Below are positions 6,001 through 47,502 of a stretch of DNA of 64,000 bases, piece by piece. Location: NCBI RefSeq assembly GCF_000208865.1, contig NC_018396.1, forward strand, positions 3,901,101-3,965,100, written 5' to 3'. Source of the DNA: Neospora caninum Liverpool (taxonomy: Eukaryota; Apicomplexa; Conoidasida; Eucoccidiorida; Sarcocystidae). The notes beneath the pieces are model-generated. The model did not search any database. It saw only the letters and a program-made list of their open reading frames with translations, and had not been told where the DNA came from. The position numbers and the translations under genes are program-made. Positions within the stretch are counted from its first letter, which is position 1. Each line of letters begins with the position of its first letter.

Positions 6001-9000
6001 CGGGAACCCTTCTGACGAAGCCGATGAGCCGGTGGAGGAACACGAGCCAGGGGGGGCCGCAGAAGACGCCTGGCCCGGTACTGGTTCCTCGGCTTTGTGC
6101 TGTTGATGTCCATCTCCGTGCGGTATCCTGTTGTGTCGCATGCAGCGCCGGCGCTGCGCTCGGCGAAGCAACGCGAGTGCGCGCCGCACTGCGCTCAGAA
6201 GCAGTTGCGGCTCCTGCCACCGCAGTATGAGTGCCGCCAGCAGCAGCATGCTCAGAGCTTCTCTGCCTAGCAGGTGCACTTGCGAGTTGATATACCTACG
6301 CACAGTCTCAAGAAACAGCTTTTCTTCCCGATCCAAGGCCACTGGCGCCAGGTATAAGGCAAAGTCTTCGGTCTCACTCGGCAGACTAATATTCCCAGAC
6401 CTCTCCTCATCATCTTCGAATCGTAACGGGTTGTCTTCGCGTGCGTGAAATGCGTTGTTATTCTTCAGTTGCCTCCGGTCGAATTCCTTTTGACGCTTGC
6501 TAGCTATCGTAGCCACTGCCCAGATAGCGTTCGTCAAAGCCTGCGCATTACAATTTGATATTTCCATTCTGAGTCGCCGGAGGACGGCCGCCACAACAGG
6601 GGCTTCATCTGCTGATGGCGAAATCCCTCTTTGTAACGCTCCTGGACTCTCATCCGCCTTCACCGGTTGCGCCACGCTCGATGTCGCGGAGTCCCAATCG
6701 AGCGTGGCAAGAGAGAACAAAGACGTGCTCGCGTCCAACGCGCTCAGCGACGGGGCCAGGTGCAGCAAAAGATGTCGGAAGCCACCATTCAGGCGTGCTT
6801 CACACTCCACCATCCGCTTTCGAAACGCGACCGCAACGGATAGCAGTGAGGATGCTCCGTTCCGTAGCTTTCTGTCCATTTGCTCTGCCTGTGGAGTTGC
6901 CAAGTCCTGAGCAGTGGCAGGTGCAGCCGCGCCACGTGGGTCTGCGATTGCCTGGTAAGGATGGTCAAAAAATCCTTGGGCCTTAATGCTCGCGAGGACC
7001 CGAAGTGCAGACGACAGCTGCGTGCCGTCCAGTTCCCGAGCGGTGGCCAGTTCTGACAGCCTCGAAAAAAGCCTCAAGAGCAGATGTTCCCAAAATGAGA
7101 ATGCACGCGTTGCAGATCCGTCCGTGGTGACACTTGGGTTTGCGGTGTCATCACAGGTCGACGAGAGGGTGTAGTCACTGCTGGATTCGCATACCTTCTC
7201 GACTGATGATGCACGTAACCCCGCCTGCATCCCCCGAGATGAGTCACCTGCAGCTACATGTCCTGCGAGCTCAATCGACGACAAACGCCGAAGCGAGGAC
7301 GCAGCAGACAAACGCTCGAAAAGGCCGAGCTTTTCAAGGGCCCACAGAATGCGCGTTAGCTGGTGATCCATAGAAGGTATTTTGACAAAAATAGTCCCCA
7401 ACAGTCTCCGCATCCTGCCATCGTGCAACCACCGATCTTCGTGACCTTTTCGCGGTCCTACTACAGCTTGCGAATTCACAGTTGTAAGAGTCTCCTTTTC
7501 ACAGATGAGGCCTGGCGGAGAAGGTGCACGTCCATCGTTTCGGCCTCTGTCACCAAGACAGCGTTCCTGCAGAACTGCTAATCGGTGGAGAGCCGAGCTA
7601 AGGGATAGCGAATCGAGGCATAGCGCATCACTCTCAGTGAAGTGGCTGTCAGACGCCTTCGTAGATGGCGACTCACTGGTCGTTCCGGATCCTGACTCCA
7701 TTTGTACCTGTGTCCCTGTGATGCTATCGGACTCCGCTGCCGCTGCATCAATGGCCTGCAGAACCTCTTCGACACTATCAGCCGACTGAATACGCCGTCG
7801 AAAATCTCTACTCAGATTTAGCTCTCTCACCTTCCGGGTAACGTTAGTATCAAAATGAGTTATCCAACCGTCCTCGAATATGTATTCAGATTTACTCTCC
7901 CTCGACCTCGCCACATGCACGCCTTCAATAATTTGCCTCGATTCAGATTCTGTGAAACGGTCGCTTAGCCCTTTCTCAGTACTTGAAGTTAACGATTTCT
8001 GGAGAGATTCACTTTCTGAACCAATGATCGCCTCGATGCGATTCACGAGCAGAGCGGCGGTATCATGCCTGTTTAGGCGAAATAACAATCGCAGCAAAGT
8101 GCCGCTGTTTTCCAAGAGATGCAGGTGCTTCACCTGCAACGATGACGCCCCAGACGGGTGCTTGTTCGAGGTGCTGAGCTTATCAAGGAGGAGGTGAAGT
8201 CGGGCACCAAGCCTCTGCAGGACAGAGTCAACGCCGCAGCAACGCTGTGGACGTTTCAGGTGTCCCAGACCTGACGGCGCATCTTGCTTCCTCTCAGGCC
8301 TTGAGCCGTACTCCGTGCAATTCCTCTCCGCCTCATTCTCTGTGGCAGCAAGTTCTACCTGCCTGGAATCTTCGTTCAGGGCTTCTAAACAAATCCTGCT
8401 TTGCTCCAGAGAGTTAAGACTGAGAAGCAATGTCACAACATTTGGCAAACTGTCAAGGCGAGCCCATTCCCGATCAAGCGCCTGCGTAGCCACCGAAAGA
8501 AAGCGGAACATGTTCTTCGCGAACTGGCCCCGTTTCGATGTGCCCTCCACCATTTCCTTGGCATGCGTTTCCCTGTCGTCCCGCCTGACGGTCCCAGCAT
8601 CATCGTGACTCGATGCACGGGAAGTCCGCACCTGCTGCGTTTCGTGATCCATCCACCTGCATCTTGTCTGACTGCGTGTGGTCTGAATCTCTGTCTCTGA
8701 TGGCAATTCTTTCCGCAGCTTCTTAATATGGTCACGGAATAGGAAACTCGCAGCAGCGAGCAGCTGAGGGAGTTGGGAATGCACTGGCAGAACCCTGTCC
8801 GCAGCCAAAGCGAAGAACGCGGCAAAGCTTTCCAGCAGCCGTTCCCTGTCCGTCTCATGACGGCTCTCTATTTCCTGACTGTCGTTGCCGCTATGCAACT
8901 GCGATTTCAGGACAGAAAGAGGGTTCGTTTCGTCCACGGTTGACGCTGCTGCAGACCCATCCCGGTGGCGTGCAGTCGTGTCGACCACAGCCTCGTTCGC

Positions 9001-13686: not shown

Positions 13687-15329
13687 GCAAGCAAGCGCTC
13701 GCGAGCCTCCGTTCCGCCCCCGGTAGGTGCATTATATTTGAAGTCGGGATTCAGAAGAAAGCAGTGGAACACTACGACGCCAGCTCGAAACACTTTCAGA
13801 CGTAGCTACCGATGATCAAGCACAGCTGAAAAGAGGCAGGCACAGTGTCTCGTTAATGGGAAGATCTGTCCATCAGCGGGGCTTGGGCGCAGCCGAGTGA
13901 TGGTGCAGAGGAACCCCACCATGCGATCAAGAAAACCCGAGGCCCCCCACACTGTCCTTGTCAAGGGCTCGCAGCCTAAGGTTTGAAAGACATTCGCAAA
14001 AGCAGAGTTTCATCTGCAAAACAGACGCCCTGATGCCAGCTTTGCTGCTCTACACGCATGCCAGAGGCCACTCTCCACACATTCCCGTTGATGGGCGGCG
14101 GCGTAGTGCTCCAGTGTGATCTTGCTCGTTTCAGTGCACCGAAAACACTGTCCAATCGATCTTTGTCGATTGGTTTTCCGCGTGACGGATGCAGGTCTCC
14201 AGAAAATGAGTAGTGCTCGCGTCTCGCGGCTCAAAAGCAACCTCCATATAATCCTTTTTCCCGATTAGCGAGGCTTCGGGCCGGCATGTCCTGCTCGATT
14301 GTGGACCGGGTTTGTCTCCCGTGAACTCGGACGTGGCAGAGTCTCTGGCGGCGGAAATTGTTTCAGGTAGACGGAGCAGCCCGAACCTGGGTTCCGTCGA
14401 TGTTGGCCGTTGGCCAGTGGCGGGTGCTTTCACCGCTTGTCTTGCAGAATCGACGCGGGGGAAAGCCACGCGAGAGTGTCTGAAAGGAGGGGCGCCCACG
14501 GACAAGAACTTCGACCTTTCAAAGAGGGGGAGAGATTTACGTCAATACACGAACTACCAAGGCACAGTGCAGAACAGAGGACTCTGTCGGAGTTTGCAGT
14601 AGCCGTACAGCGACTGGGTTCTTCGGGCCCCTCGTCGACGACCCCCCATGGAACAACAGCGCATGCACAGACAATTTTGCGTCGACAGACCATTTTGAGC
14701 AACTTGCGCTTCTGGATTTCTGAACGGAAACCATTCATGAACACGTCTGCGATTGTCAGTCATACGTTGATTACAAGGACGGATTGCTGATGTCTTGGCG
14801 CCCGTCGCGGACCTTCTTACAGCAACCCTCCGGAGTTCGGATACAGCCTATATAACGTTCGACCGTGCGTCGGCCCGGCAGGAACGGAAACTCTGTCGTC
14901 CACATCATTACCGCGTTCCTGTTTTTTGCGTCGTGTTCATTCACCTTCTGCGAGAGCGTCCGTCGTCACAATTTCGTTCGAACTGGAGGGTCGATTTTTC
15001 CGTGTGTGCCCCCCTCCCCCAACGGCAATTCCCTGCCCATGTCCGGACACCTCAGGCTCGTCCCTAGGCTCGCGGTCTCAGACCAGTTCGGAGAACTGTG
15101 GCGTCAGGATGATGGATCATCGCGCGCAGTGAGATTCTGGTGTCCTTCACAGCTTTCACCTCGCCGAATGGTGCACCTAAATACCGTGATCACGGACGGA
15201 CAAGCGACTTGTCCCTGGCATCCTCCGGTGGAAGACAAGTTTTTTTCTTGCTAAATAAACTCGGGTGACGGATGCCAAACTTCGTCGTGCCATAGGAAGT
15301 GTTCCTAGGTCTTCTGCGGGTGATCCTCG
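13687..15329. promoter_or_regulatory. Divergent intergenic region between two organelle-directed genes
   Basis: This 1.64-kb stretch separates the start codons of the minus-strand helical-repeat gene and the plus-strand uL18 gene, so it must hold both promoters and 5' UTRs. Short overlapping frames of up to 125 codons occur on both strands (for example 14131-14505 minus), but none shows a recognisable motif or convincing splice partner. No TATA-like or repeated motif stands out by eye. Confidence 0.5.
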
Positions 15330-18114
15330 ATGCGAACGACTTGCGGGCATGCCAACCGCGCCTCAGCGGGTCTGTGGTCCCTTGTCTCATTGTTTTTGAA
15401 GGGCTTCGTCGGCCTCTGGTTCACTCAAATTGTCCTTTCAGTAGCATCATCTGTGCCTCGCTGTCGAGCTTCCGTTCACCGAACCTGTGGCAATGGTCTG
15501 TTGACAGGCTCCTATCATCAAGGCGCAAACGGCACCTGCAGACCGCGGGTGTTCACGCCGGCTTCAATAGTGCCGACTTCCCGGAGACTGCTTATGTTTC
15601 AGGCTCGTGGTCTCCACCAGAGAGACGGAGTCCACAAAGAACTGGATGCATCGCGTTCTTCCAGTCCCCTGAACTACGGGGGGGATGTCCCTTCCGGTCA
15701 ACAGACGAAAAAAGATGACCGCCTCTCCTGGTGGACCTCTCCCATCCACCGAAACTGGCATGGACGGACGATGCTAGCGGCTCAGGAGGGCATCTCCGTT
15801 CGATCACGGGAGCCTTCTTCGTCTGCCGTTGCACACGATTCGGCGTCTCTGGCAGTTTGGCTGTGCGTTACTCCCTTCACGGGTCTTCGCGCCGGGTCCC
15901 ATCTCGGTTTTCTGGTTCCTGCTGTCGGACAAAGCCTGCCGGCCCGGCAACTTCGCAGTGGCTTCGGACGGCGTGTGCCGCTCCAGGCTCCACTCACTCT
16001 GCCTTCTTCCGAGGGCATCGATCTCTCGTCGGCAGCGCCTTTCTCGGCGCCGGCATCGTGTCCGTTCTGTTCGAAGATTCAGCCCTTCTCTCCTGTGACT
16101 CACGCTCGCTACATCTCCTCTGCATGCCAGCGACGTCCTTCTGCACCGTTTTCTTGTGCGCTTCATGGCGTATCCTCCGCAGTGCCATCCCCGTTCCCAA
16201 CGCCGCCGCCGGGGCCAACCGCACAGTGGCTGCGGCGCTATCAGGGGCCTATTTCGTATCTCGGCCAAGGCAGCCAGGGATTGGCGAGACGGAGGCAGGC
16301 AGGCAGGGGTCGGTCAGAACGTGGTTTGCAGCGATTGGCCGCTGGAAGCGAAAATCCCTCGAAAGAAAGCTTGCTTGGACTGGCAACACACTCGGAGACG
16401 AACCCTGCAGAAAACGAAGAAATATTGGGAAATAGCGAAAATCCAAAGGGCGGTGCTGTCGACGGCCAGCTGTCTGTGCAACCAACTGGGGTCCGCCGTT
16501 CGGACACAATCGAACGAGATAAAGTGCTACTTGGAGAGAAGCGTGCACGCCTTACGATCACTCTGAGCAACAATCAGGTCCACGCATGTGTCGTCGACAA
16601 TCGACTGCAGCGTACCTACGCGTATGCAAACAGCTTTGATCCTTCGCTTCGGATGGAAATCGGCTCTGTGCAGCGAAAACGGGGTAAGCAGGAGATAAAT
16701 GAGAAGGCATCAAGTACGGTATTGGAGAAAGGAGGTTTTCAATCACTGTAACACCCCGGAAGCGCATTTGTCCCCAGGGTAGGCATTGCTTATGTTCTAG
16801 GCGTAATAAATAGAAGGAATACTAGCATAAGAACAGTAAAAATTGTAGACCAAATGTATAGGATGCAGTCAAATATTATGAGATTCACTTCGGCAGTCTC
16901 CTTCCGGATGTTTGTCTGTACAACATTTATCGCCCGATTACGTAGAATCATAGATTTCTATTAGATCGCATGTAAATCTAATAGAATCTCAACCAGTCCA
17001 CCCAACCAGTTAAAGATTTTAGTAGCTGTAGGACTAGCAATCATATTTTTAAACAGTACATGTAGATGCTCATGTGCGACATGTGCAATTCGCAATAGCT
17101 AATTGCCTCCATTCTTTGAGATGGGGGAGAAGGCGAGACAGCATAGGATGTGCTCTTTGGATTCTTCCAAGGATGGAACGGTAGATATTCATTACCCGGC
17201 GATGAAACTGTCTACGTGGTGCGCTAGCTACTTGTGTGCAATATCACATTCCAACGAAGCGCCGACGACATATATCGGCGAGCAACGCAGAAAAGCATCG
17301 GGGGCCGCCTTGGGCTCTTTTTCAAAACTGCCATGTGGGATCTCCTGCTACGTGTGCCAGTATGGAGTAGTGCACGCAGTTGAAGTTTATTTCATGGCGA
17401 CTGAGTCGCATTCAAGACCTCGTGGGGCAACTAAGCTGAAGCGAACCCGTCAGTGAGTGTATTGCGCAGTGGGAATGCCGTTCAAACGCGAGCAAAGGAT
17501 TACAATGTGCTAAAACTGCACCCGTGAAGAGCTGTCGATGTGCCCCCCGCCCTTCATTTTTGTTCCGTGATTCAGGGTGGGCCTCACGTCCCCATGGTGG
17601 AACGATGCGGGCAGCGAGAGCCGTCGGCCGGCTCTTAGCGCAGCGGGCACTTCAGAAAGGCATCAAGAAAGTATTCTTTGACCGCAAAAGCTACCGGTAG
17701 GCGTGTTGGGCTCGAAGGTATTTCCGTGATTGCCTGTTTGCTTCCTGGTTCAAAGGCAACGGATATGCGTGTCACGGCCCCTGCTGTTGCATGCAGTGTT
17801 CGGCTGTCTCGTCGCCATAGACGTATTCGGGGCGTCTACAGTTTTGTGTCATCACCAGTACTCGGCTACTGAAAGTCCATTTGGATAGATATTGGTGCCT
17901 TGGCACATATCACCCGAAAGAGGCTTTCGAAGAAATGGAAGCACAGTGGAAGACGGGTCTCCGTGAGAGGTATCTGCAGAACGATCCGCTCGACTGCTAG
18001 TCAGAATGTCTCTGAGCGCTTCGCGTTATCAATGCCCTGAATTCTTTTCCCAGGTACATCGGACGCGTCAAGGCGTTAGCTGACGGTGCTCGCGAGGGCG
18101 GCTTGGAGCTCTGA
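15330..18114 (+). CDS. Organellar (probably apicoplast) 50S ribosomal protein uL18, long N-terminal extension
   Basis: There are three exons: 15330-16683, 17576-17696 and 18054-18114 (stop TGA). Phases match at both junctions (1, then 2) and give 511 residues. The C-terminal ~107 residues are bacterial-type uL18: the strand region RARLTITLSNNQVHACVVDN near residue 405, the helix VGRLLAQRALQKGIKKVFFD, and the terminal R-Y-I-G-R-V-K-A-L-A-D-G-A-R-E-G-G-L-E-L. In bacteria and plastids uL18 binds 5S rRNA in the large subunit. The ~400 residues before it are Ser/Pro/Arg-rich and unlike any ribosomal domain. They open with a hydrophobic stretch (about residues 15-40) followed by basic sequence, which resembles a bipartite plastid leader. 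A mitochondrial destination is the alternative. The usual bacterial protein is ~120 residues, so most of this product is extension. The gene diverges from the giant repeat gene on its left. Confidence 0.88.
16952..16990. repeat. AT-rich inverted repeat in uL18 intron 1
   Basis: The arms AGATTTCTATTAGA (16953-16966) and TCTAATAGAATCT (16978-16990) are near-perfect reverse complements around an 11-nt loop. The surrounding 16.8-17.1 kb is markedly AT-rich compared with its neighbours. It lies in the first intron of the uL18 gene. Confidence 0.5.
16997..17043. repeat. Dispersed AT-rich element, copy A (possible organellar-DNA insertion)
   Basis: This stretch carries the core AACCAGTTAAAGATTTTAGT followed by AGCTGTAGGACTAGCAAT. 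A diverged copy with the core AACCAGTTGAAGATTTTCGT is present at 63742-63790. The AT-richness and a readable hydrophobic frame would fit a mitochondrial-DNA insertion (NUMT), which are common in coccidian nuclear genomes, but the source was not established. Confidence 0.4.
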
Positions 18115-19972: not shown

Positions 19973-21847
19973 TTACTGCAAATGCGCCAAGATTTGCACT
20001 CGAAGATCATCATCTGCTGTACACCCTTCTGTATCTCTCAACTTTTTCAGTAATTCTTCTTTTTCCATAAGCTCCTTGCTTAGGGCCTGTTCGCGAACAC
20101 GCACTTCATTCAAAGCTTTTACGGCATCATCCCGTTTCGACCTTGTTTCCCTGACTTCCTTTCTCGATTTATTCCTTGCTTCAGCCGCTACTCGGTTCTG
20201 TCGCAGCAGACGGCTCTCCTCCGAGGTTAGATCGTCTATCTCTCTCTTGAGATCCTCCAGCTCCTCCATCCTCTGCTGGGATGTCGCTTGTAACTGTGAC
20301 AGCGAATCGAGCGCAGCCTGTAGCTGGCCGGCCGTCCTGTTCGCGTCTTGTGTCAAGCGGCCAGTGGCAGGATCTTGGGTGCCATCCAGCACGGCGCGCA
20401 GTTTCGCCTCTTCAGTTTGCAGGTTTTCGAGCTCTGCAGTCAGATCATGCACTTGCCTAAACAGTGAGCTCGCGTAATTCTGTGTTTCGCGGAGACGCGC
20501 TGCTTGCGGATTTTCGGTTTCTGCAGTTGCTCTCTTTATCTCTTCATGCTTATCAGCCAGAACTTCCCGTTCCCTATGAGCGGTTGCCAGCTTCTCTTTT
20601 AGTTTCAGGTATTCCTCTTCGATGCCTTGCATTTCCTCCTTGTGCGGTTCAGTATTTTCCCCCGCTTGCGCACGTGCTATGCTTTCTCTCTTCTCAGCTG
20701 CCAAGCGCACGAGCTCCTCTGCTTGTTGTCGAAGTTGTCGGTAACGGTCTGCTGCCGCGTCTCGATGTTCCTCCAAGTCACGAAGCACTAGCCGTGCATG
20801 CATCAACTTGCGGACACCTGATCCGATCGATGCTCCGGAGTGAGCGAGAATCATCACCATGATTGCATTCCATATCCACCGGGACATAGGTCCTTCGCTA
20901 TCGAGTCCAGCTGGACCAGAGTCTGTCCCTTCCGATAGAACTGATTCTCCCCCTGACTCTTCCACAGTATCTGCATCCCCTGGATGGCCCACTACTTCTT
21001 GCGAGCCGTCAGCGTGTTCACCAGGCTGAACGAATCCAGGTTGCGATGCCGCAGTTCGAGCTCGATCTCCTGCGGAATCAAACGCGAGAGATGTACCGGG
21101 TTCATATCTGACAAAGCGGGAGGCAGCATACAGCACCGCAGCTGCTGCCACTACAGAGACAACGGCGACAAGCACTTTCCTGGAACGCCGCCGACGCTGG
21201 TCGGCATCAACCTGCCGGTCGCCATGGTCCCTGTCTGAAGAGACATCCCTGTCTGAAGAGACATCCCTGTCTGAAGAGACATCCCTGTCTGAAGAGACAT
21301 CCGAACTAGGCACGGCTGTGGAATCGATTGTCGGCTGTTCGTCGCCGCGCAATCTAGCCAGTGCCGACTTCTCTGGGGAAGACCCGGTACGAAGCAAATA
21401 CTGACCATAGAGGATTGACGCCAGCAGCAAAAACCCAGCGGAAAACAGCTTTAAATGGCGGCGCCTCTTGCCTTGGCTCTTCAGTCCGGTTGTATCCCTT
21501 TTCCGTTTTACGCGACTGGTGGAAGCCAAACCTTCCGAAAGATCTTCATGCATTCTTTCCCTGCCAGCAGGGAGTCGGGGTGCGGCCGCCACGGCCGCCC
21601 CAAGATATCCAGAGGCCCCTAAATCTCCAGCTGCCTTAGCAGCGAGACGTCTTTGCTCAACTGACATCTCACTCAGAATCTGCCGCAAAGGTGCACCATG
21701 TTCGGTCTTCCGGCTCGTCGCCTGCCCGTGGCCCCGTTTGCCATGCGCCTCCAGCTGTCCAGTCTGGGTTGAACCAACTGGAGGCAAGCAAAGGGCAAGC
21801 AATATTAAAACGAGCGAAACGAAATTCACGGTACCGCTGCCCCTCAT
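19973..21847 (-). CDS. Secreted coiled-coil protein with three membrane segments (dense-granule-like)
   Basis: This is an intronless frame of 624 residues from the ATG at 21847. The frame stays open upstream to 22057, but this Met directly precedes a strong signal peptide (residues 1-28, VSLVLILLALCLPPVG). A TEXEL-like RRLAA sits at residues 66-70, close after the leader, where the Golgi protease ASP5 cuts exported coccidian proteins. A basic run (RVKRKR, GKRRR) precedes membrane segment 1 (~134-152). Four copies of DVSSDR follow (183-206), then segments 2 (~225-243) and 3 (~325-345). The last ~260 residues are a long Glu/Lys/Arg/Leu coiled coil. The layout fits a secreted protein inserted in, or attached to, a membrane such as the parasitophorous vacuole. 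That role is inference, and no named family is recognised. RRLAA lacks the acidic fifth residue of the best sites. Confidence 0.72.
   Translation of the reverse strand: MRGSGTVNFVSLVLILLALCLPPVGSTQTGQLEAHGKRGHGQATSRKTEHGAPLRQILSEMSVEQRRLAAKAAGDLGASGYLGAAVAAAPRLPAGRERMHEDLSEGLASTSRVKRKRDTTGLKSQGKRRRHLKLFSAGFLLLASILYGQYLLRTGSSPEKSALARLRGDEQPTIDSTAVPSSDVSSDRDVSSDRDVSSDRDVSSDRDHGDRQVDADQRRRRSRKVLVAVVSVVAAAAVLYAASRFVRYEPGTSLAFDSAGDRARTAASQPGFVQPGEHADGSQEVVGHPGDADTVEESGGESVLSEGTDSGPAGLDSEGPMSRWIWNAIMVMILAHSGASIGSGVRKLMHARLVLRDLEEHRDAAADRYRQLRQQAEELVRLAAEKRESIARAQAGENTEPHKEEMQGIEEEYLKLKEKLATAHREREVLADKHEEIKRATAETENPQAARLRETQNYASSLFRQVHDLTAELENLQTEEAKLRAVLDGTQDPATGRLTQDANRTAGQLQAALDSLSQLQATSQQRMEELEDLKREIDDLTSEESRLLRQNRVAAEARNKSRKEVRETRSKRDDAVKALNEVRVREQALSKELMEKEELLKKLRDTEGCTADDDLRVQILAHLQ
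21230..21301. repeat. Four 18-bp tandem repeats inside the coiled-coil gene
   Basis: The unit CATCCCTGTCTGAAGAGA (plus strand) is repeated four times almost perfectly and encodes DVSSDR on the minus strand. It sits between the first and second membrane segments of the encoded protein. Confidence 0.85.
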
Positions 21848-28323: not shown

Positions 28324-31300
28324 CTAGCCACGTAGGCCCCGCACCGGCGCCTTACCGCTAGACTCTAAACCAGTCAACAGCAGGAGCGCAATCGGCAAAA
28401 CCGTTTCCAGCTTTGTGCCACCAAGGAGAGGAAGAAACTTAAGGAGAGGCAACAGATCACCTCCTGGGATCTTCTTCAACATATCCAAAACCTTCGGCGC
28501 CACGAGCGCCAAGAGCAACAACTTCTTCATGTTGTCGTCTGCCAATCCTTTGCCGCCAGTAGGCTTCAACAGCAAGGCCTTTGCTGCAAATGCCAACAAG
28601 AGCTTCGGCTTCTTGTCCAACAACATCTTTGCAACTGGAGCCGCCAACTTGAGCGGAACCAGAACAAACTTGAAGAAAGCCTTGGTCATCTCCACACACG
28701 CAATCTTTGATGATACAATACTCTCCAGCTCCATCACCAAACCCAAAAGGGCCTTCAAATGAGCCTCGTCGAAATCAACTGTGTCTGGCGAAACCAGGCC
28801 GTCGACGTTCATAGCCTCTCTCGCTCTCTCCATCATCCTTGCGACGTCGCTGACGAGCCCAGCAGGAACCAACACCGCGTCGACGAATGCAGCTGCAGAG
28901 TCCCCACTCTCCGAGTCCGCACTCGTCCACGCTCCGATGTCCCTCGCCATCGCGACCACCTCCGTTCTCGCCTCCATTCCGTGCCTCAACTCGTTCGCAG
29001 CTTCATCCGCGTCCGCACCAATCTGTTCTTCGACACCAGCTGCCCAGGACTCCACCAGATAATCCACCGTCGACATTTCGTTGCCACTCACTCCAGCCGA
29101 CGTTGCCTCCACGGCGAACGTTCCTGGAAACAACTTCTCGCTCAAGACTGCCTTAAGTAACCCGGCTGCGTCAGCAGCATCCAATGCAGTCATTGCGAGG
29201 AGCGCAATCGGCAAAACCGTTTCCAGCTTTGTGCCACCAAGGAGAGGAAGAAACTTAAGGAGAGGCAACAGATCACCTCCTGGGATCTTCTTCAACATAT
29301 CCAAAGCCTTCGGCGCCACGAGCGCCAAGAGCAACAACTTCTTCATGTTGTCGTCTGCCAATCCTTTGCCGCCAGTAGGCTTCAACAGCAAGGCCTTTGC
29401 TGCAAATGCCAACAAGAGCTTCGGCTTCTTGTCCAACAACATCTTTGCAACTGGAGCCGCCAACTTGAGCGGAACCAGAACAAACTTGAAGAAAGCCTTG
29501 GTCATCTCCACACACGCAATCTTTGATGATACAATACTCTCCAGCTCCATCACCAAACCCAAAAGGGCCTTCAAATGAGCCTCGTCGAAATCAACTGTGT
29601 CTGGCGAAACCAGGCCGTCGACGTTCATAGCCTCTCTCGCTCTCTCCATCATCCTTGCGACGTCGCTGACGAGCCCAGCAGGAACCAACACCGCGTCGAC
29701 GAATGCAGCTGCAGAGTCCCCACTCTCCGAGTCCGCACTCGTCCACGCTCCGATGTCCCTCGCCATCGCGACCACCTCCGTTCTCGCCTCCATTCCGCGC
29801 CTCAACTCGTTCGCAGCTTCATCCGCGTCCGCACCAATCTGTTCTTCGACACCAGCTGCCCAGGACTCCACCAGATAATCCACCGTCGACACTTCGTTGC
29901 CACTCACTCCAGCCGACGTTGCCTCCACGGCGAACGTTCCTGGAAACAACTTCTCGCTCAAGACTGCCTTAAGTAACCCGGCTGCGTCAGCAGCATCCAA
30001 TGCAGTCATTGCGAGGAGCGCAATCGGCAAAACCGTTTCCAGCTTTGTGCCACCAAGGAGAGGAAGAAACTTAAGGAGAGGCAACAGATCACCTCCTGGG
30101 ATCTTCTTCAACATATCCAAAGCCTTCGGCGCCACGAGCGCCAAGAGCAACAACTTCTTCATGTTGTCGTCTGCCAATCCTTTGCCCCCAGTAGGCTTCA
30201 ACAGCAAGGCCTTTGCTGCAAATGCCAACAAGAGCTTCGGCTTCTTGTCCAACAACATCTTTGAAACTGGAGCTGCCAACTTGAGCGGAACCAGAACAAA
30301 CTTGAAGAAAGCCTTGGTCATCTCCACACACGCAATCTTTGATGATACAATACTCTCCAGCTCCATCACCAAACCCAAAAGGGCCTTCAAATGAGCCTCG
30401 TCGAAATCAACTGTGTCTGGCGAAACCAGGCCGTCGACGTTCATAGCCTCTCTCGCTCTCTCCATCATCCTTGCGACGTCGCTGACGAGCCCAGCAGGAA
30501 CCAACACCGCGTCGACGAATGCAGCTGCAGAGTCCCCACTCTCCGAGTCCGCACTCGTCCACGCTCCGATGTCCCTCGCCATCGCGACCACCTCCGTTCT
30601 CGCCTCCATTCCGCGCCTCAACTCGTTCGCAGCTTCATCCGCGTCCGCACCAATCTGTTCTTCGACACCAGCTGCCCAGGACTCCACCAGATAATCCACC
30701 GTCGACATTTCGTTGCCACTCACTCCAGCCGACGTTGCCTCCACGGCGAACGTTCCTGGAAACAACTTCTCGCTCAAGACTGCCTTAAGTAACCCTGCTG
30801 CGTCAGCAGCATCCAATGCAGTCATTGCGAGGAGCGCAATCGGCAAAACCGTTTCCAGCTTTGTGCCACCAAGGAGAGGAAGAAACTTAAGGAGAGGCAA
30901 CAGATCACCTCCTGGGATCTTCTTCAACATATCCAAAGCCTTCGGCGCCACGAGCGCCAAGAGCAACAACTTCTTCATGTTGTCGTCTGCCAATCCTTTG
31001 CCCCCAGTAGGCTTCAACAGCAAGGCCTTTGCTGCAAATGCCAACAAGAGCTTCGGCTTCTTGTCCAACAACATCTTTGCAACTGGAGCCGCCAACTTGA
31101 GCGGAACCAGAACAAACTTGAAGAAAGCCTTGGTCATCTCCACACACGCAATCTTTGATGATACAATACTCTCCAGCTCCATCACCAAACCCAAAAGGGC
31201 CTTCAAATGAGCCTCGTCGAAATCAACTGTGTCTGGCGAAACCAGGCCGTCGACGTTCATAGCCTCTCTCGCTCTCTCCATCATCCTTGCGACGTCGCTG

Positions 31301-32158
31301 ACGAGCCCAGCAGGAACCAACACCGCGTCGACGAATGCAGCTGCAGAGTCCCCACTCTCCGAGTCCGCACTCGTCCACGCTCCGATGTCCCTCGCCATCG
31401 CGACCACCTCCGTTCTCGCCTCCATTCCGCGCCTCAACTCGTTCGCAGCTTCATCCGTGTCCGCACCATGCTCTTCGAGCATCACCGGTAGGTGTGGGCT
31501 GTTTGCGGTGTCATGGTGCGTGGCGGAGGCATTTTGTGTGGTGGGCTTATCCACGGACCCTTGTGTCGTGAGCTGCCGGCGAAGGACCGTTGGATTTGTT
31601 GGGCGGCTCTGTTGTTGGAGGCGGGTAAAATCTGAGGGGCACAGTGACAAGATACAGATTGTTGGTACGCGCTACTTTTGTGGAAATGAGAAGTTCTGCC
31701 TTACCTGGTGTGTAGCCCAGTCTGGGTTGGGTCTCTGGTAGCTTCGATGTTTCTGTTGTATGTAGGTGACGCAGCGATGCGGCGACCTTCCTGACCATCG
31801 CTTCATACGAAAGGTCCCTATTTCCTGATCCAAATGAATTTGATTTGTCAATGTCCTCGTGAAGAACACTGACGATCCTGTTGTGTGATGCCCGCAGGGA
31901 TGCCTCTAACGGATCGTCGAAGTCACCATTCAGACTCTGCAGCCTCGAGGGTGAGCCACGGTCTTGGTCAACAAGAGCGCCCACTGCAGACGAAACCAAG
32001 TCACTGTTGAAAAACTGTGGTTTCAACTGCTCTTCTTCCGATACAAACATCCTAGCAGATTTAACGCCGAATGGCCGGTACGAAATGAAACCGGCCACTC
32101 CGAGTAAAAAGACATACTGAAATATAATATTCCGACAGATTGCAGTCATTGTGTTCAA
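28324..32158 (-). CDS. Secreted protein of four near-identical 272-residue repeats
   Basis: Exon 1 (32158-31705) and exon 2 (31631-28324) join in phase 1 across a 73-bp intron (GTAAGG...CCTCAG) and give 1,253 residues. The first ~35 residues contain a signal peptide (NIIFQYVFLLGVAGFISY). After ~200 residues of leader and linker come four tandem copies of a 272-residue module. Each has an acidic/Ala-rich helical half (ADEAANELRRGMEARTEVVA), then KIACVEMTKAFFKFVLVPLK, then a very Leu/Lys-rich half (KKLLLLALVAPKALDMLKKI, LLPLLKFLPLLGG). The last copy is cut short and ends in a divergent tail. The Leu/Lys-rich parts look like amphipathic or membrane-associating helices. The leader implies export. 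Function and family are not recognised. Apart from the tail, the copies differ by only a few bases, so copy number in the assembly should be treated with care. Confidence 0.8.
28370..31480. repeat. 816-bp tandem repeat, about 3.8 copies
   Basis: Identical landmarks recur every 816 bp: ATGAGCCTCGTCGAAATC at 28759, 29575, 30391 and 31207 (plus strand). Copies differ by isolated single-base changes only (for example CGC/CAC changing Arg to His, Ala/Glu in one copy, ATG/GTG before STVDYL). 816 is divisible by three, so unit gain or loss keeps the reading frame. The leftmost copy is truncated, where the gene's 3' end begins. Confidence 0.97.
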
Positions 32159-45405: not shown

Positions 45406-47502
45406 ATGGAAGACGTTAGCGTAGGTGAGGATAAACGGTGTACGAAGCGCACATGCCAAGTGCAAATCTTTCACAAAGCCACAGACACTTTCTGCTACAG
45501 AACAGCATTATCGTAGGTCCTCTCAGTAAGAGAGTTTGCTGGACGGATGCCTAGGACAACCGAAACGTCCGATACGTTCCAATACCAAGTCAAGTGCAGA
45601 GTGATTAATTGAGCTCACCCATATATATCCTACCCCTTTCTTGAATTTGATCCTGAGTGTTTCAATGCAGAAGCCCTTCAGGTGGCGGAGAAGTATGTCG
45701 CCAGACATCGCATCGACGAGCTTCTTAGAGTGCGTCATCTACTGCAGCCAGATCCCGTTAGAAATAGAATCTTCCGGCAATAAATCACCTGTTCATAATG
45801 ATCGCAGACGTTCACGTTCTGGTGTAGATGCCCGTCTGGCGACATAATGGTCTTTCCTAATACACTACGGTTTGAAGAACTGCTCCACCTGATCAGACAT
45901 CCGGTGTGTAGAGACCATATGTATATTCATGTTGCAGAGGAGACAGGACACCACTGGCAGCCTGCCGACCTCTGGGAACTCCGCGCTATTGCAGAGGAGA
46001 CAGGGCACCACTGGCCGCCTGCCGACCTCTGGGAACTCCGCGCTATCACTATTTGGGTACATGATAGAGGAAAAGGACAACCCGTTCACCGCCAGTAGAC
46101 AATGTGACGGAAATAATAAACTGCCATCTGCAGTGGACAGTACAACGCAGGGCATATGCGAGGCTGAGGTGCAAATGTTTCTCAACATACCTTAATCGTA
46201 CAGTTCGATTCGATCATCCGAAAAGCAAACGACTCTGCTCGGACGCCCATAGCGGCCTAGCAAATCAGTGCTGCGGCAAACATTGTGTAGCCAGTCTATA
46301 ACGATATGTAGGCGCCTGTGCAGATTTTCTAAAATACAACTTGCACTGCCTCTTTGACGCAGTTTTCACAATTTCCCCCTCGGTGGTGCTGTCCTGGAAC
46401 AAAGGGGAGATACGCGTATGACTGCTGGCAGAAGCGGGCAGTCAATTTCTATACACATAATTTTGTGTTACATTTGCATGACATCCAGGATATATACGCA
46501 TCTCTCTGTTTTTACAAACCAATAAACGTGCGTCAGTTTCTCCTGGAGGAACTGCAGCGCCGCCAGGCGCAGGTGAGGCACTTCATCTCGCAGTTGATAG
46601 TTCTGCCATATTTCTGGGAGCTCGACGCGGGAGAGGCACGGCCACAACCAAATCACTAGCGCGCAGAAATTTTAGGCGTTTCCTAAATATTTCCTCCCCA
46701 GTGGCTGAAATGTACTTCGAAGCCCTAGGCTTGTGCGGCAGGGCGCCTAATGGATGCCCCCCCGATTTAGGATTCCTGTTCTGACCTGGTAGAGATTAGC
46801 ATATCCACCCTTTGTTCATAAAACTCTTGCAGACAGAACACGAGGGATGGCGGGATCATAGTCCTTTTTTCAGAAAATTCCGTATGCGTCTCACTCACCG
46901 AGACCTTGAGCGTGGTTAAACTCGTTTTCCTGTGGCAAATGCCCCGCAACCAGACACGTTCTCAACAAAAGTAAACGGTTGCGAACCTGGTGACGGAGGA
47001 CATTATACGCGACTTAATCCAAAGTACTAGTTTGTTTCCCGTGAATCTGCAGGGTCCAGCTGCGGGGATGTTTACAACAAAAGAAATCGACGCAGTTTTT
47101 GAACTGTGCGACACCGACAAGGACGGAAAGATCTCCAACGAAGACTGTAGAGCAGGTAAAGATTTCGGGGGCGATTTTTGGTACCCTCTTGCCTCGTGAG
47201 CTCTTCTTCCACATTGTTTCATTTGCTGCCACAACACAGCGTGGCAAAGTCAGTCAGGTTCCTTGGTGTTGTGTTGACACGGCAGCCGCTTTTCTCTGAC
47301 CCACCTCCGCCTACGGCGGGAAAAAGGAACCTATGGACTGATGTCGCTCCTCCTGCGGCTGAATCGGTAACTAACGACGAGTCCTCCTCTTGTGCGCCCA
47401 GGGCTCCAGTATGTCCTACTCTCGTTAAACAACTATGAGGAGGCTAAAAACGCCATTATTCCAGATACAGTCACAAGGCCTCAGTTCCTTGACCTCGCGT
47501 AA
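45406..47502 (+). CDS. EFCAB10-like protein: RIIa/DPY30-type dimerisation helix pair plus EF-hand
   Basis: Five exons are 45406-45424, 45671-45729, 46489-46572, 47053-47155 and 47402-47502 (TAA). All four junctions match in phase (1, 0, 0, 1), giving 121 residues. The N-terminal half (ALQVAEKYVARHRIDELL, then YKPINVRQFLLEELQRRQAQ) has the layout of an RIIa/DPY30 dimerisation-docking helix pair, ending in the typical K-P-x-x-x-R-x-F-L motif. A canonical calcium loop DTDKDGKISNED follows, and a second degenerate hand ends the protein. This order and length match EFCAB10, a small protein usually linked to cilia or flagella. In a coccidian, a basal/apical complex or flagellar (microgamete) role is possible but is inference. 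The start ATG lies in a 19-nt coding segment before a GTGAGG donor, which no simple ORF scan would find. Confidence 0.82.
45932..46045. repeat. 57-bp tandem duplication in intron 2 of the EFCAB10-like gene
   Basis: Two copies of a 57-bp unit start at 45932 and 45989 and differ at only a few bases (for example GACAGGACACC versus GACAGGGCACC). The unit is divisible by three and keeps an 83-codon plus frame open (19-residue repeat with HHWQPADLWELRAI). It lies between two exons that splice in phase, so it is most likely intronic. Confidence 0.85.

Follow-up and report, generated by a model that had tools for sequence, protein, structure and literature searches.

The window analysed here, a stretch of 64,000 nucleotides of the Neospora caninum Liverpool genome (contig NC_018396.1, C12:3901101-3965100), carries on its minus strand a gene for a predicted secreted protein built from a tandemly repeated 272-residue module. 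The underlying 816-bp unit is arranged head to tail, with the first copy starting at 31455, in three whole copies and a fourth that shares 626 bp with them. Pairwise identity between copies is 99.20-99.75%: between any two of copies 1-3 there are 2-4 differences over 816 bases, and copy 4 has 2-5 against each of them over the 626 bases in common. These differences fall at both synonymous (unit positions 366, 453 and 660) and non-synonymous (26, 376, 518 and 748) sites. Four copies of such length and identity cannot be due to chance. The 816-bp spacing and the few single-base differences, synonymous ones included, are thus as described in the first-pass annotation of the window, and its count of four near-identical 272-residue modules holds for three; in the fourth, homology ends after about 209 of 272 residues and gives way to its own C-terminus. 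The features of the gene, several of them defined with the help of the Toxoplasma gondii ortholog TGME49_234165, are as follows (aa, amino acids).

31705..32149, minus strand: predicted exon 1, with the ATG at 32149, a hydrophobic N-terminus (signal peptide or anchor) and a linker; from the T. gondii alignment and an upstream in-frame stop
31632..31704, minus strand: predicted 73-bp intron (GTAAGG...CCCCTCAG), which joins two frames; the ortholog alignment is ungapped across the junction
28324..31631, minus strand: exon 2, with a short linker, all modules and the stop; open frame
30640..31455, minus strand: module 1 (272 aa); repeat comparison
29824..30639, minus strand: module 2 (272 aa); repeat comparison
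29008..29823, minus strand: module 3 (272 aa); repeat comparison
28382..29007, minus strand: module 4, partial (626 bp common with modules 1-3); repeat comparison
28324..28381, minus strand: unique C-terminal tail and stop (58 bp); sequence
31246..31419, minus strand: unit a of module 1 (module residues 13-70), recurring every 816 bp; profile comparison and model
31036..31209, minus strand: unit b of module 1 (module residues 83-140), containing the only Cys of that module (in KIACV); profile comparison and model
30751..31155, minus strand: Leu/Lys-rich half of module 1 (module residues 101-235; overlaps unit b); composition, the model being of low confidence beyond about residue 150

All modules lie within the stop-to-stop frame 28324-31671, directly upstream of which an open reading frame (31547-32158) has a hydrophobic segment at its start. 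Splicing from a GTAAGG donor at 31704 to a CAG acceptor whose last base is 31632 would bring the two into one reading frame, and we predict a gene of two exons (32149-31705 and 31631-28324) separated by a 73-bp intron and encoding 1,250 aa. The join is supported by the alignment of the joined protein with TGME49_234165, which runs without a gap over the junction (residues 118-194 against residues 1-77, 40% identity, BLASTP E = 2e-13; alignment score 116, the highest of 1000 shuffles being 53). The coding range 28324..32158 proposed at first pass does code for the modules, but as two frames joined by a predicted intron (31704-31632) rather than one, and the ATG at 32149, directly upstream of which lies an in-frame stop, is a likelier start than the TTG at 32158. 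Recorded gene models seem to miss the true start: that of the window gene (P0002, 1,052 aa) begins at residue 199 of the predicted protein, that of TGME49_234165 at the residue matching 118, and that of the N. caninum paralog NCLIV_049320 at residue 76 of its own long open frame. The hydrophobic N-terminal stretch of the window protein (best 19-residue mean 1.74) keeps secretion, already proposed for it, as a prediction.

On sequence similarity, the gene is one of an uncharacterised family, of which three loci were found in the N. caninum genome (57.5 Mb, 14 contigs). The module gave 13 matches in this genome, four in the window gene, eight in NCLIV_049320 (at C12:3871.6-3877.5 kb, the extra C-terminal unit accounting for one) and one in a gene on C13, and two further family queries (13 and 17 matches) returned the same three loci; the search scores best candidates only, so that more distant loci may exist. 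NCLIV_049320 (C12:3871529-3877780) lies outside the window, about 51 kb from the window gene and on the same strand. It consists of seven 807-bp units followed by an extra C-terminal a-type unit, and shares with the window gene the module plan and a predicted structure of two exons with a small intron; its modules are 52.8-54.5% identical to those of the window. When GT donors agreeing with the consensus at 4 or more of 6 bases were combined with CAG or TAG acceptors, a single in-frame join was found, with a 70-bp intron, which would again add a hydrophobic N-terminus. The third locus (C13:1985.0-1986.7 kb), hereafter the dispersed paralog, has TGME49_311710 as its T. gondii ortholog. Like the array genes, TGME49_311710 and its orthologs have a secretory-type N-terminus and units a and b related to the array units; unlike them, they have no tandem array but four degenerate units, a-d. 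An open frame near the dispersed paralog ends in HDEL and is presumably an HSP70/BiP gene.

Searches of 5.8 billion protein sequences (7,984-7,995 candidates scored per search, with length limits) found relatives of the module in Toxoplasma, Besnoitia and Cystoisospora. The array query returned seven proteins (itself, one of T. gondii, four of Besnoitia besnoiti and one of Cystoisospora suis), and NCLIV_049320 returned only itself, no Toxoplasma counterpart of it appearing in these length-limited searches. The profile of the dispersed gene returned six: two N. caninum models, T. gondii 311710, one each from Besnoitia and Cystoisospora, and one labelled lgn. This last record lies on an 18.8-kb contig and is by eye closest to the Cystoisospora ortholog. 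The named organisms among the protein matches are all coccidia, although relatives sharing no words with the queries, any in Eimeria or Sarcocystis included, would escape such a search; the named relatives are annotated only as hypothetical or uncharacterised. TGME49_234165 has the same module in four tandem copies, the last cut at the same place as in the window gene. Besnoitia has the same module and tandem build, with 13 module anchors over four gene models (BESB_086060, BESB_086080, BESB_086090 and BESB_086100), each listed on an 11,712-base contig and some of which look mis-spliced. The partial Cystoisospora record CSUI_010076 holds one whole module whose last 12 residues repeat the sequence preceding it, which makes an array likely there too. 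Copy number thus differs between arrays (4, 4, 7 and at least 13), in agreement with the suggestion that copy gain or loss would produce size variation. Hydrophobic N-termini recur in the dispersed N. caninum paralog, in its T. gondii, Besnoitia and Cystoisospora orthologs, and in the Cystoisospora array protein.

Each module is made of two related three-helix units and a Leu/Lys-rich half. The composition follows the description given at first pass of an acidic and a Leu/Lys-rich half: residues 1-100 carry a net charge of -12, and residues 101-235 (135 residues) are 26% Leu and 15% Lys with a net charge of +10. Units a and b (58 residues each) share the plan A..F....L.P..L...VA, and their profiles align with an HHalign score of 30.5 (probability 63%), reached by 0 of 200 column-shuffles. 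Because the blocks had been picked by that motif, the comparison was rerun without it; the score of 18.6 exceeded the shuffle maximum of 11.3 (0 of 100 as high), so that the relatedness appears weaker but stands. An AlphaFold2 model from a 10-row alignment is all-helical, with a mean predicted local distance difference test (pLDDT) score of 55. Its first 15 ten-residue blocks (residues 1-150) range from 50 to 77 and average about 66, and beyond about residue 150 values are 52 or less and the structure is not readable. In the model, units a and b would have three helices each, the third of b being split in two. A single Cys occupies the same place per module in the Neospora, Toxoplasma and Cystoisospora arrays and in NCLIV_049320. 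Inside the modules the best 19-residue Kyte-Doolittle mean is 1.71 and charged residues break up the stretches, which in our view would make amphipathic surface binding by the Leu/Lys-rich half likelier than membrane insertion. In the C. suis protein (residues 493-600), a Leu/Lys segment resembling LKKLLLL..VAPKAL occurs three times at a 36-residue spacing, so that the family contains repeats within repeats.

A single module matched no Pfam family at E <= 1, as expected from the earlier statement that no known family is recognised, and no solved structure was found for it. Scored on the complete protein, PF02767 (DNA polymerase III beta, central domain) reached 29.5 bits (cut-off 27), and none of the stretches passed alone. 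The precomputed Pfam labels PF02767 and PF21683 on array proteins appear to be false positives produced by adding up scores across the repeats.

The modules were compared over a 165-residue core. Within the window gene they are 98.8-100% identical (6 pairs), within T. gondii 99.4-100% (6 pairs) and within NCLIV_049320 94.5-100% (21 pairs), against 84.8-86.1% between the window gene and Toxoplasma (16 pairs). In T. gondii, the first three modules show no difference over 270 residues, and a single residue of 208 separates them from module 4. Besnoitia is less clean: once three copies running off protein ends were left out, the 10 usable copies were 69.8-100% identical among themselves (45 pairs) and 59.5-75.8% identical to Neospora (40 pairs), and we tentatively ascribe the low values to mis-spliced models, with odd spacings of 230-248 residues. 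In a maximum-likelihood tree (23 rows, 15 of them different), a branch sets each array apart from the rest, with support of 95/91 for NCLIV_049320, 66/81 for the window gene (Nc1) and 81/75 for T. gondii, the Besnoitia rows being identical; 4 of the 12 inner branches are starred. The moderate support of the Nc1 and T. gondii groups reflects how few residues vary. This tree includes 3 of 13 Besnoitia copies (two seemingly mis-spliced ones and proteins P0006 and P0007 were also dropped), and long branches at the point where NCLIV_049320 joins the dispersed paralog drew a warning from the program.

Near-identity within species, lower identity between them and grouping by species in the tree together indicate concerted evolution, and homogenisation is, judged from these sequences, well supported for Neospora versus Toxoplasma. 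It bears out the earlier proposal of recent amplification or gene conversion. The Neospora and T. gondii arrays have four copies each, their starts match by eye within a few residues, and they end at the same position, with TG replacing TA just before the end. The simplest reading would be an ancestral array whose bodies were then homogenised separately in Neospora and Toxoplasma; independent amplification is less simple, since the same number and the same ends would have to be chosen twice. With copy number and ends in common and bodies homogenised separately, these arrays make a clear case of intragenic concerted evolution. An assembly artefact, in which the true locus has another copy number or just one, is very improbable: near-identical 816-bp repeats are easily miscounted, but the copies have their own differences, the same count of four, with an identically placed truncation of the last copy, is independently present in the T. 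gondii record, and arrays also occur in Besnoitia and NCLIV_049320.

The helical plan and the Leu/Lys-rich half lead us to consider as most likely (probability of about 0.4) that the window protein is a secreted amphipathic helical protein that coats lipid or membrane surfaces. Entry into the secretory pathway, towards dense granules or a store in oocysts or sporozoites, would be directed by the N-terminus. Like an apolipoprotein, or like the helices found in certain GRA proteins, the amphipathic and Leu/Lys-rich helices would attach to lipid or membrane surfaces. Having several copies in tandem would add avidity and reach, and unequal crossing-over or gene conversion would keep them alike while allowing copy number to change. 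The gene may be expressed in oocysts or sporozoites, a guess drawn from its Toxoplasma paralog: TGME49_311710 is reported as sporozoite-specific, and depletion of AIP1, a stabiliser of the AP2XII-5-MORC complex, raises the level of TGME49_311710 mRNA (PMC11831446). Extended to the whole family, the proposal is more doubtful: a secreted, oocyst/sporozoite-stage family of tissue-cyst-forming coccidia, whose helical units might coat lipid or membrane with a strength set by the number of concertedly evolving modules.

Export was considered through the motif RRLxx, given as the consensus of the Golgi protease ASP5 for TEXEL proteins (PMC4764566). Among the five orthologs of the dispersed paralog, four (four genera) carry RRLRG and the record of the fifth starts downstream of the motif, while RRLRR occurs in NCLIV_049320; both motifs lie some way past the hydrophobic start and fit RRLxx. 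RRL arises in 6-12% of shuffling trials. The window gene, in contrast to NCLIV_049320, lacks the motif, its first 260 residues containing RRQLT and no RRL.

This last result is one of several that weigh against lipid-surface coating by a secreted window protein. Family and structure searches found no lipid-binding family for the module, and the Leu/Lys-rich helices could equally form a buried core. The AlphaFold2 model is weak (0 of 272 residues at 90 or above, 114 below 50), and without the picking motif the HHalign probability for units a and b is just 7%, yet above all shuffles. The recorded T. gondii and Besnoitia array models have no signal peptide of their own, although they seem to start late. 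Finally, the sporozoite datum concerns the paralog and not the window gene; no statement on stage was found for the array gene, nor any localisation data for the locus tags of the family.

We rank next, as unlikely but worth weighing, a structural or matrix protein, whose long helical rods would pack or cross-link in the oocyst or sporocyst wall or the vacuole matrix, the one Cys per module forming interchain disulfides. Still less probable is a repeat antigen, in which near-identical surface or secreted modules of variable copy number divert antibody responses. Long near-identical repeats in a probably secreted protein and array copy numbers from 4 to at least 13 would fit it. However, low complexity is typical of decoy repeats, whereas here each module is a patterned helical one that keeps about 85% identity from Neospora to Toxoplasma, and Leu-rich hydrophobic sequence makes a poor exposed epitope; no serology was seen, in searches of which none was aimed at it.

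Slightly less probable again is a Cys-less saposin-like lipid-transfer family, in which the N-terminal unit of the dispersed paralog would derive from a saposin domain and the family would extract or present lipids. Saposin C is the top match among 177,635 distinct PDB sequences, at E = 0.036-0.053 with two unfocused family profiles and at 0.0016-0.0019 with a profile focused on the matching stretch (next other protein 0.38), although the focused profile was chosen only after the first match. Pairwise scores against saposin are 68-74 in five dispersed-paralog orthologs (shuffle maxima 44-49) and 50 in the Cystoisospora array protein (shuffle maximum 48), but only 31, 23 and 29 in array proteins Nc1, Tg1 and Nc2, where 115, 731 and 239 of 1000 shuffles score as high. 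Moreover, no relationship of the saposin-like unit of the dispersed paralog to units a-d could be detected, 11 to 29 of 60 shuffles reaching its score, and the Pfam saposin models match none of 6 family members. Saposin-like proteins have six conserved cysteines forming three disulfides, whereas the matched stretch has none and the window protein one per module. We regard the likeness to saposin C as a lead and not as a classification.

Elsewhere in the window, a perfect 18-bp tandem repeat (21228-21302, 4.2 copies) lies inside a 700-residue open frame (22075-19973, minus strand) that has no Pfam match at E <= 0.01. A 57-bp unit is repeated twice at 45932-46046 (96% matches), and the open frame 15324-16748 has a sub-threshold match to ribosomal L18p (E = 0.00026, 21.8 bits against a cut-off of 27.8).

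Proteins of coccidian oocysts and sporozoites, the stages that spread infection, are poorly known. Screens based on signal peptides would skip the present family, which carries no domain annotation, since the two N. caninum array models lack the predicted exon 1 and the Toxoplasma model starts partway into the region that matches it. Secreted repeat proteins are a known kind in coccidia; the module itself is undescribed in the literature and databases searched. Among known proteins, saposin C is resembled only by a Cys-free stretch of the dispersed paralog (40 residues) and of its Cystoisospora relative, and not by the window protein. To our knowledge, GRA2 has no such 272-residue tandem modules. 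By description only, the window protein may be likened to GRA2-like dense granule proteins, which are secreted coccidian proteins whose helices bind the membranes of the vacuole network (PMC6442604).
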